Virus record (IMG/VR): IMGVR_UViG_3300023202_000034
Location: 1 to 64,000 of that record
Reading direction: 5' to 3' (one strand)
Length of the DNA stretch: 64,000 bases
DNA from: a virus
The notes under the pieces were generated by a model. It was not told where the DNA came from. It was given only the letters and a program-made list of their open reading frames with translations, and ran no database searches. The position numbers and the translations under genes were made by a program. Positions 2,015-58,274 of the stretch are shown here, piece by piece. Numbering within the stretch: the stretch's first letter is position 1; each line of letters begins with the position of its first letter.

Positions 2015-3258
2015 ATCAGATCGCCTGTAAAGAAGACCTTATACCGTGCACGAGATACTGCAACGTAAAGCATACGGGCTACCTGATTGGTATCACGGCA
2101 TTTCTTAACGTCGTCCAGATCAATGAACACAGCGTTGTATGTTGAGCCTTGAGACTTGTTGATGGTGCATGCGTAAGCTGCACGCAAATCAATCCAGGCT
2201 CGGTTAATGTCGGAAACAACATCAAACTGGTTTTCCTCTTTGGCCAGGTTGACACGCTTTTTCTTGTCATCCGGGTTGGTAGGCATGAACGCCGTATGGC
2301 GATTGTCCAAGGTGTACTCAAAACCAGGCACATCATGTTCTTCGGCAGGTGTCATCGAAGTAATGCGCACCATTTGATCGGTCTTGATCTGACAATCCCG
2401 GGTATGGATGTAAGCATTGCAGACCGCGTAATCCCCTTCAGAGAACTGAGGACTGCCTTTGACCAGGTTACGGATGCCATGGTTATAACCAATGACGGTC
2501 TTGTTGGTCCAAGCCAGTACCTTGGAATCCCGGTCGGTCCAGTCCGGACGGTTGAATTCTTTAACGATCTCCGCTTCAAAAGCTTCCCGGGGCAACCATT
2601 GAATATGTTGACCATCGGGTTTGAATGAGAAGAACTCGCCAGTATTGACCGTGTTCCGGAAAGCTGTAGACAGATCAATGATCGGGTTTCCCTTGGCTTG
2701 GCGAACCACTTCGGTCAACTCTGCTGTAGGGAAGCCTGCGTTAAACACGGGTACCTGTGACGACTTTACAGGGGTCAGCTGGGCAGGGTCTCCGATGAAC
2801 ATGATCTTACAGTTCTCGGTACGCTTGAAAATCAGGTCCAGCAAATGGGAATCCACATAGCTGGCTTCGTCAATAATGATCAATGCGTTGCGGACGATCT
2901 CTGCTTTGGGCGCCGGCACCAGCGTACTGACCTGAGTCACGTAGTTCTTTTCAACACGCAGCCCGAGAACGGACTGGATGGTACGCACTTGTTGCTTTGC
3001 AGCCAGCTCAAAGGCTTCTGCTGCTTTGTTGGTGGTAGCGGTTAGAACCAGTTCCATGTTCTTCTGTTTTGGGTCAACCAAAGCCAAGGTACGGAACAGT
3101 TTTGAGATCTGCTCGATGAGGTATTCAACCAGCGTGGTTTTACCAGTACCGGCATAACCTTTCAGGACAAATACGTGTTCGTTGGGGTCAATGACAAACT
3201 GAGCGAAGCCCTCATAGGCCGCTTGTTGCCCTGTGGTAAGTTGCAATGCTGCGCCCAT
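2011..3258 (-). CDS. SF1 (Dda/RecD2-like) DNA helicase
   Basis: A 415-aa ATP-dependent DNA helicase of superfamily 1, presumably acting at the phage replication fork. Visible motifs in order are the Walker A GYAGTGKTT near residue 36, Walker B IIIDEAS near 128, motif III IGDPAQLTPV near 155, and a C-terminal NKSQGSTY...VAVSRAR, which is motif V/VI of SF1B helicases. The length fits phage Dda-like helicases. The N-terminal TTGQQAAYEGF resembles the Q-motif region of that family. An AAGGAG site precedes the ATG. It is placed ahead of the DNA polymerase. Confidence 0.9.
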   Translation of the reverse strand: MGAALQLTTGQQAAYEGFAQFVIDPNEHVFVLKGYAGTGKTTLVEYLIEQISKLFRTLALVDPKQKNMELVLTATTNKAAEAFELAAKQQVRTIQSVLGLRVEKNYVTQVSTLVPAPKAEIVRNALIIIDEASYVDSHLLDLIFKRTENCKIMFIGDPAQLTPVKSSQVPVFNAGFPTAELTEVVRQAKGNPIIDLSTAFRNTVNTGEFFSFKPDGQHIQWLPREAFEAEIVKEFNRPDWTDRDSKVLAWTNKTVIGYNHGIRNLVKGSPQFSEGDYAVCNAYIHTRDCQIKTDQMVRITSMTPAEEHDVPGFEYTLDNRHTAFMPTNPDDKKKRVNLAKEENQFDVVSDINRAWIDLRAAYACTINKSQGSTYNAVFIDLDDVKKCRDTNQVARMLYVAVSRARYKVFFTGDLI

Positions 3259-6065: not shown

Positions 6066-7946
6066 TCAGAACAGCTCAGTAGCGTTCCGTGTAACCCAAT
6101 CCTGTACCGCTTTGTTTTGCAGTAGGGGTTTCTTTCTACGGACAATTTCCCGCAGACAGGTCACCTGAAACTCAACAGGAATACGCTGAACGAATTCCAT
6201 CAGAGGTCCGATGTTCACTTCGGTTGCGTTATGCGCAATGGTACCGGTCAATGCATACAGCACGTCCGGTTCTTCTGGGACTGTGACACCCATCGGATTG
6301 GCCGCAATTTGCGGTACGGTCAGCAGCTGGCGGTAGATCTGTGAGTAACCGAAGAACTCCCGGGCTACACCTTCAGAGATGGTGCCAGCCAGCAGTGGCA
6401 GCAGGTCACGTTCAATACGCTCTTCGCTTTTGATAATCCGTGAGCAGAATTCCCAGGTTCTGGGACTGGCGTAGGTTTTGTCATCATGATCCGGTTGGAA
6501 TCGGTACAGGTTGTCTGGCTTGTACTTGATGTACGATGTGATCCGGTGATCAATGCCGTTGGACGTTGCCCATTCAATCCACTGATCTACATCCACAGCC
6601 AGTTCCAGGTGAACCAGTCGTGACTGCAAGGCTGTGCTCATCTCTTCAACCATGGCGTTGTCCGTGTCCAGGTTACCAGCACAGGCAATGGCACAGTTCT
6701 TGTGAATGTTGAATTCACCGATCTGTTTGTCCAGCACCACTTTGTAAGCGGCTTTCTGTACCGAGCGATCAGCGTGATTCATTTCATCCAGTAACAGAAG
6801 CCAGCCAGCATACTCGTGAACGTACTCAGTACCTTTTTCATCCTTACGGAGTTCGGTTGGCAGAGCGTCACCTTCCAGTGGGAATGTACTCATCGGCAGA
6901 TAGCTGGCACGACGGGCTTCTTTATCGATGTGCGGAAATCCTAAACCTTATGTTCGAGGAAGGTCGCAACACCTTCCCCCGTTCTCTTATGAACTGCTGC
7001 ATATCACTATGCAGAGCAGACTATATCAACACCCTCTGTTTACACAGGTGGGGTGGCTACCGTTTCGAGCACCATTGGCTTGTGCTCTACTCCCTCATGG
7101 GATAGTCGTTCGGCATATTATCCAAGACTGTCCCAAAGATACGCCCTGTACCGTCGATTCTTTACCTTGTTCAAATAGCTCTGAGTAATACCAAATTTGG
7201 TCGCGGTGCCTTTGACACTAGCGCCTTGCTTGATTTCTCGGAGAGCGTCTAATAGTTCAGAATCTGAGTATTTCGCTTTATGGTGGGCCTGGCCAAGTGA
7301 AACCAAACCACTCTGTAAAGCGTGGGTGTAATTCTTTCTTTGGGTAACGATCTCTAGGTTACTGACTGCGTTGTTGCTAGGGTTTCCATCAAGGTGGTTG
7401 ATGACCTTACCCTCAACGCTTCCTAGATATGCACTGGCAACCAAGCGATGTACAAGCCCGTAACTCGCAATCATCCAATACTGATTTTTGGATCTAGCGT
7501 TATTCACTTTCTGGGGCTTGAGTTGGCGTAGGTTACCTTGCTTGGTCGAGAAGATATTACCTTCACGATCGGCGTAGATACCGTTGTGCATCGTTTCCTG
7601 CATAGTCGTTACCTCCTGTGTTTGTTAAATAATAAACACAACGACTATAGAAGTCAATTTTGGAATTTAGCACGGGATTGTCCTCACCATTATGTGGGCG
7701 GAGTTTCCCCGTTTAGGTAGCTTTCGACACAGAATTTCTCCTGTGAAGCCCTTATTAGTTAAGGTCGGTTGGATCACACTGAGCCAGTCGCAGATCGATC
7801 AGCTTCAGGTTGAATTGTTTGGCAATGGCTTTGAATAGCTCAGACTTACCACAACCAGGAGAGCCTGCCAGGAACGGTACCAGACCGACTTTGATGGCCC
7901 GGATAATAAGATCGTGGGCCTGGTTCATGTTTACGGGAGTTGTCAT
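6066..7946 (-). CDS. N4 gp24-like AAA+ (MoxR-type) ATPase, split by a group I intron
   Basis: This 354-aa MoxR-type AAA+ ATPase is encoded by two exons, 7762-7946 and 6066-6945. Exon 1 carries Walker A (AGSPGCGKSE, residues about 27-36) and ends within the sensor-like PTDL motif. Exon 2 carries GFPHID, Walker B LLLLDEMNHAD, sensor 1 CAGNLDTD and the arginine-finger region TALQSRLVH. Joining after GACCT and before TTTAGGA gives DPTDLLGFP, the conserved MoxR signature. The combined exon length is 1065 nt (355 codons), exactly in frame. The intervening 816 nt has group I features and an HNH endonuclease gene. It is probably the partner of the VWA protein at 3662-4777. Confidence 0.85.
6946..7761 (-). 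mobile_element. group I intron in the gp24-like gene, carrying an HNH endonuclease
   Basis: This 816-nt intervening sequence is on the coding strand of the ATPase gene. The 5' exon ends in U (GACCT) and the intron ends in G (ATAAGG), as in group I introns. A P1-like helix can be drawn between exon CCU plus intron U and AGGG ten bases downstream, with a U-G pair at the splice site. Near the 3' end the core elements GACTATCCC (about 7098-7106) and GATATAGTC (7019-7027) give the P7/P3 signature. The flanking GAACTGCTGCAT..ATGCAG segment is nearly identical to the thyX intron. It encodes the endonuclease at 7118-7603. Confidence 0.85.
7118..7603 (-). CDS. HNH homing endonuclease inside the gp24-like intron
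   Basis: A 161-aa HNH-type endonuclease. The motif region reads VHRLVASAYLG...VINHLDGNPSNNAVSNLEIV (about residues 50-85), where H, N and H are in the positions expected for intron-encoded HNH enzymes such as I-HmuI relatives. A C-terminal helix-turn-helix-like segment (ASVKGTATKFGITQSYLNKV) probably contacts DNA. It starts at ATG 7603 behind a perfect AGGAGGT ribosome-binding site. Its expected role is to cut intron-less alleles of the ATPase gene and so spread the intron. Confidence 0.88.
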   Translation of the reverse strand: MQETMHNGIYADREGNIFSTKQGNLRQLKPQKVNNARSKNQYWMIASYGLVHRLVASAYLGSVEGKVINHLDGNPSNNAVSNLEIVTQRKNYTHALQSGLVSLGQAHHKAKYSDSELLDALREIKQGASVKGTATKFGITQSYLNKVKNRRYRAYLWDSLG

Positions 7947-10642: not shown

Positions 10643-12201
10643 TCAAGAGAGTCCGTAGTTGGATTGACGAATCAAGTCTCCTAGAACGTCAGATCTTCTT
10701 ACATACTTCACAGGTTGACCATACAGCTGACTCAGGATATCCGAAAGGATTTCAGACTCAGCCAGTTCAGCCATGATTTCCTTATAGTGGAACCGGAGCT
10801 GGTTCATGTTGTTGGCGTGGCACTTAACATCAGTTAATCAGGACGCTACTCCTGACCTTACTTCCCGTGGTAAGTCTCAAACTTTCGTCTGAGTGTCGGA
10901 CTATATCTTCACCCTCGATTTCTCGGTGGGGTGCAAGGCGCTTCGGCCCTCGCTTGAGTGGCCTATGGACATTATTTACCCAGTGGGTATCTCGTCCTAG
11001 TCTCTACACCTTCCAACGTGTTACCACACTGGCTTGGCACGGGATTGGCTTAGGTGTTACCCCTTAGCGTCCCCCGTTTTCACCTCGTTTCATCAGCCTA
11101 TTACTAAGCTGCGGAGCCTAAGATTGACTCATCATGGATACACACAACAGGGAATGGCTTATGGCGTAGGCAGTCATTGACGACCTTGGCCAGTGCCTTC
11201 AGGTGATCAGAATCCAGTGCTTCCAGATCTGCGAAGGTCGCATCATCCAGAATCCGGATATCTGCCATCTTGCTGGTTTCATAACGGCCTTTGAGAATAG
11301 GTACCAGTTCCTTGGTAGTTGCACAGAACTGCTTCTGTTGGCTCTCACCAGTGGCACGTTCCAGTAAGATGATCTCAATGGATTTAGTAGCCCATTCCAT
11401 CAGGTGGCGATCGTAGTTGCATCGACGGATCAGACTCCGTAGGACATACGCATCTATGGAGTGGATAACATTTGCCACGTTGCTTAAGCCAGTCTCTTTA
11501 CCTACGTTCTCCTTGTATCTGTAAGTAAAGGTTGCGTGATCCAGTTCGTCCACTTCAATCCGCTTCTCTACCACATCCATGACTTTCACATGGGCATGGT
11601 AGTTGTCTGGCAGTACCCAGCTGTGAGACAGGGCATAGGGTTGCCAACTTTCCAGCAGATCTTGTAGTAGCTCACAAGCTCCCGGAGCCATTTTCCACAT
11701 GGCTTTGTAGAAGGCATTTAGCTCAGGAGTGTCCTCACCAAAGATCAGCTTTGGTTGTTCTTTGGAGCCATATAAAACCGTCATCGTCGCTTTCTTTACG
11801 TGATCACGCTCACTGGCAGGCAGGTGAGGTACCCACTTGCGCATGATGTTGGTGCACAGCGTGTAGGCATCAGCACGCTGGTTTGGGTTAACCAAGCCAG
11901 TAGCCTCTGCACCACTATGACAGCCTGTGGTAGCTGACATGATCTGCATCCCACTACACACCGCATCAAAGCCAACCATGTGGCCAGTAGGTTCCCCTCT
12001 CTGAGCCTTACGGATGGCCTGCACCGCCTTGAAGTACAGCGGACGTTCCTTCCACTTACCAGTACGGGCATGGCCCAACTGTTCCAATTGCTCAAGATTC
12101 TGTTCAGCCCACTCAATACGTGGTTCAAAGTTCTCTTTATCTAGTCCCCACTGGTTTGCTGCGTCAATCAACAAGTACTCATACCCTGTAAATTCTTGCA
12201 T
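10643..12201 (-). CDS. N4 RNAP2-like RNA polymerase subunit, split by a group I intron
   Basis: This is the catalytic subunit of the phage's middle-gene RNA polymerase, related to T7 RNAP and to N4 RNAP2 (404 aa). It has two exons, 11127-12201 and 10643-10827, giving 1260 nt and 419 aa. Motif A is VGFDAVCSGMQ with the catalytic Asp near 79. Motif B is KKATMTVLYGS near 136-146. Motif C is HDE at 356-358. Joining GATGAGT to TTAAGTGC restores HDEFKCHANNMNQL and then a helical C-terminus ending SNYGLS. The uninterrupted frame instead reads HDESILGSAA and stops. It works with RNAP1 encoded just upstream. Confidence 0.9.
10828..11126 (-). mobile_element. ORF-less group I intron in RNAP2, directly after the catalytic HDE
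   Basis: A 299-nt intervening sequence begins after exon base U (GATGAGT) and ends in G (AACTGATG). It contains GATATAGTCC (10898-10907) and an upstream GACTAGGAC (about 10995-11003), the P3/P7 core signature of group I introns. The GATATAGTC element is also present in the two larger introns of this phage. No ORF longer than a few codons is present, so if mobile it depends on an endonuclease elsewhere. Removal restores the frame exactly. Confidence 0.85.
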
Positions 12202-43204: not shown

Positions 43205-43546
43205 TTAGCGGCTGAACAAGCTCATGTCTGATTTCTCAACAGAATCTGTTTGAGAATTGGGCAGAGGCTCGCTTGCTGCTTCTTCCGCGTCAGATTGTTC
43301 TGTTTCGTCAGCTTCAGTTGCTTTAACTTCGTCTGTATTAACGGTTTTGGGCTCAACAACCGCGTCGTCAGCACAGCTGGCAACGAAGCCTGGTGTACCT
43401 TCGGCGCATTCAACTTCGGCACTAAGGCCTGAGTCTTTGCGGCCCATGGTGAACGAGATGTTACTCACCGGTCGGGCAACACCCTGACTGGCCAGAAACA
43501 TGGCGATGGCTTCTTCAATGTCTTTTTGCTTAAGACGGATTTCCAT
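43205..43546 (-). CDS. hypothetical acidic protein with SLFSR tail
   Basis: A 113-aa protein. An N-terminal helix (LKQKDIEEAIAMFLASQG) is followed by a disordered Glu/Asp/Ser-rich tail ending DMSLFSR. It overlaps the RuvC-like gene by 17 nt. The terminal SLF-x-x resembles the end of the SSB at 45349 (TSLFAQ), which may reflect a shared binding partner. The function is unknown. Confidence 0.65.
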   Translation of the reverse strand: MEIRLKQKDIEEAIAMFLASQGVARPVSNISFTMGRKDSGLSAEVECAEGTPGFVASCADDAVVEPKTVNTDEVKATEADETEQSDAEEAASEPLPNSQTDSVEKSDMSLFSR

Positions 43547-44150
43547 AAACGAGGTCTCTCATTTTGTCTGCGTTAACAGGGGTGGCTTGAATAAAGGGGA
43601 GGATGTTCAGGAATTCAGTGGTCTGAAGTCCTGCCTCAATAGCACCGATGGCATCAGCCATGTGCTCGGCCTTGGAGGCACTGACGGAGGTAACCCCGTT
43701 TCGTGTCACCATTGGCCAGTTAGCGTTGGGATGGAGCTTCACAGCTCGATCAATGATTTCGGCTTTGGAGGCAGTCTTACTGCCCACCGTGGCCAGTTTG
43801 ACTTCAGTCGGGGTCACCTCAAAGAACTGAATACCCTGGGCACGTAAGGCACCCAGGACACCGACACAGATGCCATAGGAAGCCATGGCTCTGGCAGACT
43901 GGCTACCCACCGGGACTTCCACGAAAACACACTGTACGTCTTGAGAAGCCAGTGCAGCCTTGAAGGCCAACTGTCTTGCTCGCTCCAGATCTTTACTGTT
44001 TTGCCTGACCGTTTTACCGGTGGCGAAATCAGGATTGATCAGATCCAGGGTGTGTACCGTCAGCTTCTTGGTTTCGGTGTCATAGTGGCCTTTGGCCAGT
44101 CCCCAATTGTTCAGGGACGGGTCGAAACCACAGACGGTTATTAAGCTCAT
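43530..44150 (-). CDS. RuvC-like Holliday junction resolvase
   Basis: A 206-aa protein with the RuvC/RNase-H fold signature: CGFDPSLNNWGLA at residues 7-19 (first catalytic Asp), VFVEVPVG near 78 (Glu) and the C-terminal KAEHMADAIGAIEAG with the closing acidic residues. It would resolve branched replication intermediates before packaging. The start is ATG 44150, overlapping the stop of the HNH gene (ATGA), with GGAG supplied by the HNH gene. The first eight residues MSLITVCG duplicate the first eight encoded at 44701 (MSLISVLG) with different codons. Confidence 0.82.
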   Translation of the reverse strand: MSLITVCGFDPSLNNWGLAKGHYDTETKKLTVHTLDLINPDFATGKTVRQNSKDLERARQLAFKAALASQDVQCVFVEVPVGSQSARAMASYGICVGVLGALRAQGIQFFEVTPTEVKLATVGSKTASKAEIIDRAVKLHPNANWPMVTRNGVTSVSASKAEHMADAIGAIEAGLQTTEFLNILPFIQATPVNADKMRDLVYGNPS

Positions 44151-44701
44151 ACGGTACTCCAGGTTCTTCCGGACTTGATCGCACTTATTGCGGCATCTGT
44201 CACACCAAATTTGTCTGCAAACGCTCGACCCATACCACGCTTCCAATGGGGTAAGGCTGATTTAATTTCAGCAACCTGGATTTGGGTTAGTGTTGCTTTT
44301 GCGATCGCTTCACCACGTGCTTGAGTACCGTGGTTGCAACGATCTTCAGCGTTCGATTTGACAGTATCCCAGCGAAGATTTCCTGGAGTATTGTTTTGTG
44401 CCTTACCATCGTTATGACATGCCTGAGCATCAGGAAAAGGACGTTGACCTTTGAAAGCCAGCAATACCAATACGTGTACCGGTACCCACTTTGGTGATTC
44501 ACCATCGGGCGCTACTGCAGCACGTAGGTACTTCTTACCTTTACTATTACTCAAGTTGAGCATGTGAGGTTCCGTACTTAAGCCTCCCCGACCATTACGG
44601 CTTTTGTATGATCGGATGCGTCCAAGAGAAGACGCCTCATACCCAGTAAAGCCAGGTATAGGGCGCCACTCTTCCATCCCTAATACAGAGATCAGACTCA
44701 T
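44147..44701 (-). CDS. HNH endonuclease fused to a duplicated RuvC-gene start
   Basis: A 184-aa frame. From residue 9 it is a standard NUMOD4-HNH enzyme: MEEWRPIPGFTGYEASSLGRI (NUMOD4), VHVLVLLAFKG...ACHNDGKAQNNTPGNLRWDT (HNH), then a C-terminal HTH-like QVAEIKSALPHWKRGMGRAFADKFGVTDAAI. Residues 1-8 (MSLISVLG) are not part of the HNH family but match the start of the downstream RuvC-like protein. Their ATG overlaps the upstream gene's stop as the original RuvC start probably did. This is an intron-less homing endonuclease inserted at the eighth codon. Confidence 0.85.
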   Translation of the reverse strand: MSLISVLGMEEWRPIPGFTGYEASSLGRIRSYKSRNGRGGLSTEPHMLNLSNSKGKKYLRAAVAPDGESPKWVPVHVLVLLAFKGQRPFPDAQACHNDGKAQNNTPGNLRWDTVKSNAEDRCNHGTQARGEAIAKATLTQIQVAEIKSALPHWKRGMGRAFADKFGVTDAAISAIKSGRTWSTV

Positions 44702-44958
44702 GACAGTTTACCGCTCTGCGGGTTGCCAACTGTGTTTGGCGGGATTTCCAGGTACCCTTCTTCAAAGGCCTTCTTGGGAGACCAGGAATGGTACTCATCC
44801 GACGTGCCTTTGTAATAAATCACATGGTAACCGTCAGCCGAGGAGTCGACTTTCCCGGGTAACGGGAAGGGACGTACATTGGCTACAAAGTCCCCCAATG
44901 TCATGGGCTCTGCGTGAACCTGTTTGATTGACTGGTAGCGTTTCAGATTGCCGCTCAT
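44698..44958 (-). CDS. hypothetical protein
   Basis: An 86-aa protein with GYHVIYYKGTSDEYHSWSPKKAFEEGYLEI, the pattern of a small phage family in which a Tyr-rich segment is followed by WSPK-x-AFEE. The function is unknown. It overlaps the Gp49-family gene upstream and the duplicated RuvC start downstream by 4 nt each. Confidence 0.7.
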   Translation of the reverse strand: MSGNLKRYQSIKQVHAEPMTLGDFVANVRPFPLPGKVDSSADGYHVIYYKGTSDEYHSWSPKKAFEEGYLEIPPNTVGNPQSGKLS

Positions 44959-56059: not shown

Positions 56060-57628
56060 TTAGTCTACAAGTGCCGACCAAGAGACTGGATAAAGTGGTC
56101 TGATAATCTCATCCCATTGTTTAGCCAGGTCTTGGATTTCTTTTTGGGCATGAGCATCACTGCGTTGAATATACGCGTTGGCCCAGGCATAGAGTGAGCC
56201 GGTTACCCAGTAGGTTGTAAGCATGGATTGAGGCAGAACCATCCTGGCCTGTTCGGGGGCAATGCCGCGATTGATCATCTGGGTATAGAGCAGGCGAGCG
56301 TCTTCAACGAAGTTCTCATACTCGGACTTCCAGTACCCCTGTTGAGTGTCGGAGACACCTCCACCACTACCTTGCTTAATGCCACCGACTGGACGGGCAC
56401 GCCAGACTTCCGGCTCGTGAAACTCCGGCGTATCATCCACATAGCGACGACTTATCTCGTTATAGGTGAAACCAACCATGTGTTTGACTTTATCTTCGAT
56501 GGGGAGCGTTAATCCCCACCCGTTCTCTTATGAACTGCTGCATGTTTCCATGCAGAAGAGACTATATCATCACCCTATTTCTAGGGGCTGGGCGCTTCCA
56601 CCAGACTTCTGGTGTACTTCCTCACGGAATAGTCGTTGAACCTTCTCTGCAAGTTCTACAGAGCTTGGCTGCTGATTGCCCTCGTCTTTCTCGTTAGGGG
56701 TTTCCAGCAATTCACCCAGTTCTTCCTCTATGAATTGCTTCATAGGGCGGCTTAAGCTGTATTCGCCTTTAGCTTGATCAAACTCAATAAGACCCATTTT
56801 GACCAACGACATAGACAGTGTTTCAAGCTGTGCATGTACGTTTCGGTGGTGGGCCATATTGTCACAGAGGTACAGATTTGTTGGTCTGAAGTCCTCTTTG
56901 TCACCGTTTACATGATGTACCTTTTCCTGTTTGGTAACTAATCGACCAATAAGATCGCTCATTACCAGACGATGGACAGGCATGTATCCATGGTTTGTGT
57001 TGGTTTTACCTACCCACACCATCGGGTAACCGTCTGAGTGCGTATAGATATTGCCAATGTTCTTGGGCTGTTGTTTGTACCCTTTATTCCAGGGTGTCTT
57101 TCCCAAGTTGGTCAGTTTGTTGCTACAACGGTAACAACGGTGAACGTCTTTTTTATAAGCGTTCCAGTAACTGACACGTTTTTCATCACCACAGTCATCA
57201 CATATACGGGTAACTTGATCGCCGGCTCTATCTTTCAACATACTACTTTTCCTTTGTTTGTTGCTTGATAAATGAGCCTAGCATAGCTATCGACAAATAA
57301 CAGAAGTTTACCGTTGCCTGGCTACAAAGATCGGGACGGTTTCCCGCATGGAGATCATGGCGTGAGAGAACGGTGTCCAATGAGTGGGCATGTTCTTGGC
57401 CCACTTGAGCGTGGCTTCAATTTCTTCACAGGCATACGGATTTTCTGTCTGGTCTTTAAGGCGATCAATTGCATTGTCCCAATCGGACTTCATACATCCA
57501 CGGGCCAGGAATTGAATTAAGCCATAATCCTTTTCAGTCAATTCTTTGGATACAGCGTTGAAGGAGACCCTTGCGGCGTTCGTGACTGTTAAATCCGACC
57601 CCATATGGTCTAAGTACTCAGCTAACAT
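56060..57628 (-). CDS. thyX: flavin-dependent thymidylate synthase ThyX, split by a group I intron
   Basis: Exons 57310-57628 and 56060-56487 join to 747 nt (248 aa). Exon 1 ends VPIFVARQR and exon 2 supplies FKHMVGFTYNEISRRYV. Joined, they give ARQRFKHMVGFTYNEISRRY, the ThyX signature region (RQ.FRHR..S.NE.S.RY). The unspliced frame stops directly after ARQR. C-terminal residues PQSMLTTYWVTGSLYAW belong to the dUMP/FAD-binding region. The enzyme makes dTMP from dUMP with FAD and methylene-tetrahydrofolate. The start ATG at 57628 lies inside the end of an HNH gene and appears to be a recoded replacement of an older start at 58274. Confidence 0.9.
56488..57309 (-). mobile_element. group I intron in thyX, carrying an HNH endonuclease
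   Basis: An 822-nt intron. The 5' exon ends in U (CAACGGT) and the intron ends in G (GATAAAG). The core elements GACTATTCC (about 56626-56634) and GATATAGTCT (56559-56568) are present. The segment CGTTCTCTTATGAACTGCTG is shared base for base with the gp24-like intron, as is a neighbouring ATGCAG. The endonuclease gene at 56570-57241 reaches into this core. Confidence 0.87.
56570..57241 (-). CDS. HNH endonuclease inside the thyX intron
   Basis: A 223-aa protein. The N-terminal zinc ribbon RICDDCGDEKR...HRCYRCSNK (four Cys) is followed by a HNH core: VHRLVMSDLIGR...EKVHHVNGDKEDFRPTNLYLCDN near residues 95-130. The long C-terminal extension (about 85 residues) is not typical and ends in codons that overlap the intron core. 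It probably drives homing of the intron into thyX. Confidence 0.85.
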   Translation of the reverse strand: MLKDRAGDQVTRICDDCGDEKRVSYWNAYKKDVHRCYRCSNKLTNLGKTPWNKGYKQQPKNIGNIYTHSDGYPMVWVGKTNTNHGYMPVHRLVMSDLIGRLVTKQEKVHHVNGDKEDFRPTNLYLCDNMAHHRNVHAQLETLSMSLVKMGLIEFDQAKGEYSLSRPMKQFIEEELGELLETPNEKDEGNQQPSSVELAEKVQRLFREEVHQKSGGSAQPLEIG

Positions 57629-58154
57629 AATACAATCCTCTTACTACTTTGTTGATAACAGTACGGGATACTCCATACTGTTCAGTGAGTTGTTTGGTAA
57701 ATCCTCTAGGTGCTCTCTTACCGTTTAGTGAGGCGTAGGCGGCTTTAATTTCCTGGACTTGCGCAAGAGATAATTTGGCGTTACGGGGTGTTATCCCTTG
57801 AGCAGCTCGGGCCTTTTGGGCTGCTTGCTTACGGGAAAGTGGACACTTATCCATCTGGTTTTGTGAACTACTTCCAAGAAGGATATTGTCCTTGCTGAAA
57901 TCGAGAGTGTCCCCATTCCTGTGACGCACTTGTATATTTTCTACAAATGCAGCTTCACCATAAAACTGGTATGCAGCAAACTGGTGTATAGGAATGCCAT
58001 AAACCATCCCTCCCCAGTTAGTAGAGAACGTGGGGTACCGTTGTTTACCATGGCAACCAATTTTCAAAGGACCTTTTGGACCGATGAGTTGGTTCCCCTC
58101 TACACGATATCCTCGGGCTACAGCTTCTACGATGCGTTGTTGTGTTTTCGTCAT
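57618..58154 (-). CDS. free-standing HNH endonuclease inserted at the thyX start
   Basis: A 178-aa HNH-type protein. IPIHQFAAYQFYG...IQVRHRNGDTLDFSKDNILLGSSSQN near residues 55-100 is the HNH core, and KQLTEQYGVSRTVINKVVRGLYYVS near the end is a helix-turn-helix. Its stop codon lies within thyX (11-nt overlap), and it contributes the thyX Shine-Dalgarno AGAGG. Upstream of it (58206-58274) is an orphan copy of the thyX first codons. GGAG precedes its own ATG. Confidence 0.82.
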   Translation of the reverse strand: MTKTQQRIVEAVARGYRVEGNQLIGPKGPLKIGCHGKQRYPTFSTNWGGMVYGIPIHQFAAYQFYGEAAFVENIQVRHRNGDTLDFSKDNILLGSSSQNQMDKCPLSRKQAAQKARAAQGITPRNAKLSLAQVQEIKAAYASLNGKRAPRGFTKQLTEQYGVSRTVINKVVRGLYYVS

Positions 58155-58205: not shown

Positions 58206-58274
58206 CTAAATTATTATGGCTGCGTTCACGGTTGTAAGGTCTGATCCCATATGATCGAGGTATTCAGCAAGCAT
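58206..58274 (-). pseudogene. orphan 5' fragment of thyX (22 codons)
   Basis: ATG 58274 starts MLAEYLDHMGSDLTTVNAA, then three Ile codons and a stop at 58206. The functional thyX starts MLAEYLDHMGSDLTVTNAA. Seventeen of 19 residues agree, yet 8 of the first 14 codons differ, all synonymously. The orphan therefore looks like the original gene start, cut off by insertion of the HNH gene, while the present thyX start is a recoded substitute. Confidence 0.8.

Follow-up and report, generated by a model that had tools for sequence, protein, structure and literature searches.

The window, by which we mean the whole 64,000-nucleotide stretch of DNA analysed here, comes from a virus record of 72,964 bases. 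Judged by its gene content the phage is N4-like, and the named relatives amongst its RuvC matches are N4-like Schitoviridae. On the minus strand a gene of 86 amino acids (44698..44958) is followed by an HNH gene (44147..44701) and then by a RuvC-like gene, the ATG of which lies at 44150. The features of the locus are as follows, where L145/L006 is a related contig with an empty site, in which there is no HNH gene before RuvC.

44698..44958, minus strand: preceding gene, the orthologue of which also stands before RuvC in L006; its stop overlaps the ATG of the HNH gene (the original RuvC ATG)
44147..44701, minus strand: HNH gene as read, 184 amino acids; captured RuvC start in frame with a NUMOD4-HNH_3 endonuclease
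44673..44701, minus strand: captured original RuvC-like start (ATGAGTCTGATCTCTGTATTAGGGATGGA), 23/29 against the empty site of L145/L006; likely junction ATGGA
44147..44677, minus strand: native HNH endonuclease, probably from Met9 (MEEWRPIPG...)
44157..44160, minus strand: GGAG in the final HNH codons (Trp-Ser), 7-10 nt upstream of the RuvC ATG; likely ribosome-binding site for the restart
44124..44150, minus strand: replacement RuvC start, codons 1-9 (MSLITVCGF), 52% against L145 over 27 nt
43530..44150, minus strand: RuvC-like gene of the N4 gp46 family; Asp motif DPS immediately past the junction

The HNH open reading frame reads MSLISVLGMEEWRPIPG and the RuvC-like frame reads MSLITVCGFDPSLNNWG, the endonuclease and its target being separate and complete. 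Pfam places NUMOD4 at HNH residues 10-41 (1.1e-9) and HNH_3 at residues 74-118 (0.00026, barely under the curated cut-off) and, because the NUMOD4 match begins at residue 10, the first eight residues, MSLISVLG, lie outside the domains; the HNH motif columns are invariant in the HNH alignment. An earlier note on this DNA had pointed out that this peptide is matched by MSLITVCG at the beginning of the RuvC-like protein and that all five residues shared after the Met differ in codon, and both observations are borne out by the frames and their codons (HNH/RuvC copy: AGT/AGC, CTG/TTA, ATC/ATA, GTA/GTC and GGG/GGT; the present RuvC codons after the ATG are AGC TTA ATA ACC GTC TGT GGT TTC). The two junctions are both ATGA, as had also been described: the stop of the preceding gene overlaps the HNH ATG at 44698-44701, and the HNH stop overlaps the RuvC ATG at 44147-44150. 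Rfam gave no intron at 44147-44725, the group I introns of the window lying elsewhere (56538-56799 and 10876-11136). The RuvC-like protein has no Pfam match and its name, a putative RuvC-like Holliday junction resolvase, is taken from the annotation of its relatives; it matches 309 phage records, in 307 of which at least 80% is covered, and its DPS motif is invariant in the alignment.

The question of which copy is the original can be addressed with the empty-site contig L006/L145, where the same gene precedes a RuvC-like protein that is 84-86% identical. The earlier note had suggested looking in relatives for an HNH-free RuvC gene that overlaps the preceding gene directly, and in L006 the RuvC start, GTG AGT CTG ATC CCC GTG CTG GGG ATG GAC (MSLIPVLGMDPS), sits directly on the preceding gene's stop; the upstream copy in the window, with its ATGA on that stop, is equivalent to it, as the note's claim for it as the original start of RuvC requires. 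The L145/L006 start is matched at 23/29 nt by the HNH copy and at 16/29 by the present RuvC copy; the upstream copy is therefore the original start and the downstream copy the replacement. The HNH start also keeps the VLGM of the empty-site RuvC, which is missing from the present RuvC, and from nucleotide 30 onward the RuvC gene is back to 74/88 (84%) identity with L145. The replacement start resembles that of a second empty lineage, L146 (21/29), more closely than that of L145 (16/29), in keeping with the import of an allele from a diverged phage. ATGGA is common to the empty RuvC (GGG ATG GAC) and the HNH core (ATG GAA GAG TGG) and is the likely left junction in the window, which we infer by comparison because the nearest empty site is just ~84% identical in RuvC.

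Pooled over three loci, 24/37 identical residues differ in codon as against 22.1 expected from synonymous saturation, so that ordinary divergence suffices for the differences in the replacement starts. The earlier description of a start that was 'duplicated and recoded' stands insofar as two start copies do lie around the HNH gene; copying followed by recoding is contradicted by this saturation and by the Rexella start described below, and the arrangement is better read as a start displaced and then replaced by a diverged allele. Searches for the HNH subfamily did not find a donor phage with the HNH gene and the RuvC start ATGAGCTTAATAACCGTCTGTGG.

The same architecture is found at other RuvC starts. 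The Erwinia phages Rexella and Frozen, the sole near-isogenic pair of filled and empty sites (Rexella being one record), are identical at 895/899 and 862/867 positions in the flanks and differ by one insertion, after ATGCTCATTCCAGT (nt 14 of RuvC). The Rexella HNH begins with MLIPV, the old start (14/14 nt), and RuvC restarts as ATGAAGATAAGTGTT (MKISV), the protein reading MKISVAGFD, and then continues as in Frozen; MKIS is not a recoded MLIP, although the flanks are >99% identical. In contig L179 the HNH protein is MSLQQSTKPGI followed by QEEWMPIPDF and RuvC restarts as MKLKVCGQDPS at ATGA, the empty relatives L212 (MPLPSPTKPGIRVVGFDPS) and L176 (MPNPPSIKPGMRVVGFDPS) being alignable at the same ATG. 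In the Achromobacter phages JWAlpha and JWDelta the 25 nt that precede the HNH ATG are those that precede the RuvC ATG in the empty Axy04, so that the HNH gene has taken over the start codon only. The left junction lies at about +26, +14 or +33 nt or at the start codon alone, depending on the event, and this variation argues against one ancient event. GGAG or GGAA is embedded before the restart in all RuvC cases, within the TGGAG/TGGAA of the last HNH codons; we dropped it as a special feature, since GGA also occurs in 29/43 broad HNH genes with a close next start.

Several further candidates were set aside. The HNH genes of the Nickievirus phages (nickie, phiK7B1 and hairong) adjoin RuvC but are without a close empty relative, SSU5 being too distant; Xanthomonas phage SAC shows no clear swap, its HNH gene beginning at the overlap where the next gene of L256 begins (ATGGGTGA); and there is no capture in L221, where an HNH gene of the same broad family stands behind RuvC (2488-3136) and overlaps the RuvC stop as ATGA. 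In hairong (L018, 1986-3618) two different tandem HNH genes, all joined by ATGA, precede RuvC and are possibly successive invasions of one start.

The HNH gene is sporadic at a fixed target site for which empty alleles are present: no HNH of this family stands in front of RuvC in 79/80 viral loci (a single-protein scan gave one relative of RuvC and an alignment-based scan gave 80), nor in Frozen. The close subfamily is rare; its close members were seen before RuvC, both in N4-like genomes and in those of the unrelated Nickievirus phages, and a scan of the genome contigs for the subfamily gave none. A survey of HNH N-termini against the downstream gene, as the earlier note had proposed, showed no enrichment of N-terminal duplication between the HNH protein and the next gene across 87 broader NUMOD4/HNH loci, with C-terminal duplication in about 3. 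Visible terminus capture is a minority outcome of HNH insertion. The lack of enrichment is explained by replacement starts that can differ from the old ones, and empty sites are the better test.

A companion case lies at thyX in the same window, most likely the first case to which the earlier note alluded in calling RuvC a second, independent one:

58206..58274, minus strand: unfused remnant of the original thyX start (MLAEYLDHMGSDLTTVNAAIII, then a stop)
57618..58154, minus strand: second HNH gene, in the thyX start; HNH_3, no NUMOD4 match
57572..57628, minus strand: replacement thyX start, codons 1-19; 17/19 residues and 7/19 codons equal to the remnant

The remnant MLAEYLDHMGSDLTTVNAA starts at 58274, ahead of the HNH gene, and the intact thyX restarts at 57628 as MLAEYLDHMGSDLTVTNAARVSF; the pair scores 87, the maximum for shuffled pairs being 38. 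There is here, unlike in the other cases, no fusion between remnant and HNH protein. In six relatives (L226-L231), whose 65-75% identity makes them too remote for a strict empty-site comparison, thyX starts in the ordinary way and no second copy was noticed ahead of it. A group I intron (56538-56799, 100 bits in Rfam) with a second HNH open reading frame (56570..57241) is also present in thyX (window 56538-57628, minus strand), and one gene has therefore been invaded twice, at its start and internally. With Rexella, L179, JWDelta and thyX as independent cases, the contention that a mechanism rather than chance lies behind the architecture holds.

Gene ends show the mirror image. Behind a DnaB-like helicase, mycobacteriophage AFIS encodes an HNH protein that ends with ADPSGRLYAELKFDGSKMEIKDF, which is the exact helicase end of the empty L024, L030, L037 and L050, and the helicase itself now ends with ADPSGRLYAELKFKGETMSIKDYG. 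In prophage L071 it is NinB that has a foreign end, and its native codons, GCATTCGGTGCGCAGCATGGGGTGGAGTTCGC in the empty L250, stand at the end of the HNH gene (a single mismatch over the final 35 nt, compared by eye). L078 (2990-3519), where a NinB-like end, TLHTEARDAA, faces the HNH end TLRQEAMQHAA, is a possible third 3' capture; its score of 34 lies inside the shuffled range (maxima 37 and 43).

A MoxR-like ATPase gene of the window (6066-7946, minus strand) is split around an HNH gene (7118..7603), apparently by a group I intron, the match to which (38 bits, E 6.8e-8) is below the Rfam gathering score. Another group I intron (62.9 bits), at 10876-11136 (minus strand), immediately follows an open frame of 264 codons, which is possibly an RNA polymerase gene. 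Outside the window a DNA polymerase gene is in pieces (G000:C1 70491-72964, locus L003), namely an N-terminal part with an extra tail (..GDTIVEYDGEQITGDVLYEKLTHRTPRDVPSS, then a stop), an HNH gene and a restarted C-terminal part (MLKINSEDNVNIDQLPNTPGFDGH..); a split-intein reading of this polA insert was dropped, as no intein end motifs were seen.

We consider it highly probable that the RuvC-like gene was invaded at its 5' end by an HNH homing gene, which seized the original start and brought a substitute start, by the route of cutting and repair set out here. Comparison with empty sites shows that the original start codon and the codons after it are now the N-terminus of the HNH protein, and for this reason the HNH gene takes the operon place of its target, ATGA-coupled to the preceding gene; the target restarts on new first codons at the HNH stop (ATGA), its normal sequence following directly. 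The element would consist of the HNH gene plus a short stand-in for the start of its target, and the free-standing gene would enter a few codons before the conserved Asp codon or, as here, directly before it. An intact target would be cut or nicked by the endonuclease close to the conserved DPSxxNWG codons. On the target side, the break may then be repaired by homology on a diverged donor already carrying HNH-RuvC, thereby importing the diverged start, and the other side, because that flank of the donor has no homology to the target, would be joined at a microhomology (ATGGA here) whose position varies between events; at 2-5 nt, these microhomologies may be fortuitous. The mirror image of this process would take place at 3' ends. 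After insertion the HNH gene would be translated from the target's own start site, the target would restart by ATGA coupling with TGGAG/TGGAA shortly upstream, and the original site would no longer be intact. Because it carries a rescue, such an element could live in the coding sequence of an important gene without an intron or intein.

The alternatives differ in what they make of the two copies. If the insertion had copied the RuvC start in place, and the downstream copy had then drifted or been selected to change, the near-identical peptides with different codons at RuvC and thyX in the window would be explained, but the starts in Rexella are almost wholly unlike despite flanks that leave no time for drift, and the window's downstream start resembles L146 more than it does its own lineage's empty site; we regard this reading as improbable. 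A stronger claim, compatible with displacement and replacement by homing, is that the replacement start was recoded under selection, conferring immunity to the endonuclease as in engineered home-and-rescue systems. The change of codon at 5/5 shared residues of the window RuvC favours such selection, as does the position of the replaced stretch next to the likely recognition region beside the conserved DPS codons; the codon differences are, however, those given by saturation alone, and insertion by itself may already split the recognition site, so that selected recoding seems to us rather unlikely.

Two further readings would dispense with capture or with mobility. That MSLISVLG is simply the native N-terminus of the HNH protein, resembling RuvC by chance, might be argued from the shortness of the match (5/7 residues after the Met) and from the pair score, which is the top score amongst the 2596 neighbouring-ORF pairs of the window but is tied by one spurious ORF pair. 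HNH homologues nevertheless begin MSEVW (that of JWDelta, 49% identical), MKEEW and MIEEW, so that MSLISVLG is not native to the family, as the earlier note had held, and in the HNH loci examined none natively began MSLI..G before an unrelated gene. A 28-mer of the empty-site RuvC start, compared with both strands of the window, moreover finds its best match exactly at the HNH start (23/28; runner-up 18/28) and independent replicates exist, leaving chance resemblance next to no probability. The occurrence of the same HNH family before RuvC in several unrelated phages could instead indicate a stable accessory of RuvC, forming a coupled two-gene DNA-processing module that is not mobile. We find this very improbable given the sporadic occurrence of the gene, absent from 79/80 viral RuvC loci and from the near-identical Frozen, and the same architecture formed by other HNH families at unrelated genes (thyX, helicase and NinB).

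Homing with terminus replacement has a counterpart in fungal mitochondria, where mobile ORFs replace the 3' ends of genes using LAGLIDADG or GIY-YIG enzymes (PMC3630166, PMC7487136). In Glomus atp6, atp9, cox2 and nad3 an endonuclease ORF near the gene end comes with a substitute C-terminus and the native end is displaced; the inserted ends are 64-81% identical in nucleotides to a sister isolate as against 91-98% for the native ends, with the proteins almost unchanged (PMC3630166). That paper cites Allomyces macrogynus atp6 as a further mobile endonuclease ORF. As in these ORFs, the displaced native terminus is close to the sister and the inserted terminus is diverged (14/14 nt in Rexella, AFIS, and 23/29 against 16/29 in the window). 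In contrast to them, the enzymes here are HNH endonucleases of bacterial viruses, 5' as well as 3' ends are affected, in-frame fusion of the displaced terminus to the endonuclease is usual, and there is ATGA coupling; the element of the window thus works like the fungal mitochondrial mobile ORFs but is not one of them.

Amongst phages, the T4 Mob proteins are free-standing HNH homing endonucleases, likewise encoded without introns beside conserved genes, and mobE overlaps nrdA by start and stop codons (PMC2988022); the passages of that review that were searched do not describe capture and replacement of a target terminus. The JWAlpha paper records two endonuclease genes behind ssb, without remark on start capture (PMC3915230). 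The swap is known at fungal mitochondrial 3' ends; for phages we found no description in the open-licence literature searched, including papers on T4 and Skunavirus endonucleases, and an earlier mention may exist. Like group I introns and inteins with endonuclease genes, the element occupies conserved coding sequence without destroying the gene but, unlike them, it has no splicing element and its target is rescued by a substitute start. The HomeR drive places a nuclease element, together with a re-coded rescue portion, at one end of an essential gene and relies on that gene's own regulation (PMC7968924); that system is synthetic, Cas9-based and built at a 3' end in insects, whereas the present one is natural, and the likeness is a working analogy rather than a relationship.

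Tentatively, and at a little short of an even chance, terminus-swapping may be a general mode of invasion by intron-less phage homing endonucleases. Unrelated HNH families would then settle at either end of replication and recombination genes (RuvC, thyX, a DnaB-like helicase and NinB), fused to the displaced terminus for its start or stop signals and carrying a cleavage-resistant substitute, as a natural home-and-rescue drive. For annotators the finding is a warning that neither such an HNH protein nor its target begins with ancestral residues. It also offers a simple signature, an HNH terminus that matches the empty-site terminus of the neighbouring gene, by which homing targets could be found for many phage HNH genes that are still unassigned. 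Rexella and Frozen are a pair of isolated phages in which the natural counterpart of engineered rescue drives could be tested. The swap extends a process of fungal mitochondria to phages and to gene starts, and it answers the question of how a selfish endonuclease without intron or intein occupies an important gene: it takes the start or the end and pays with a substitute.
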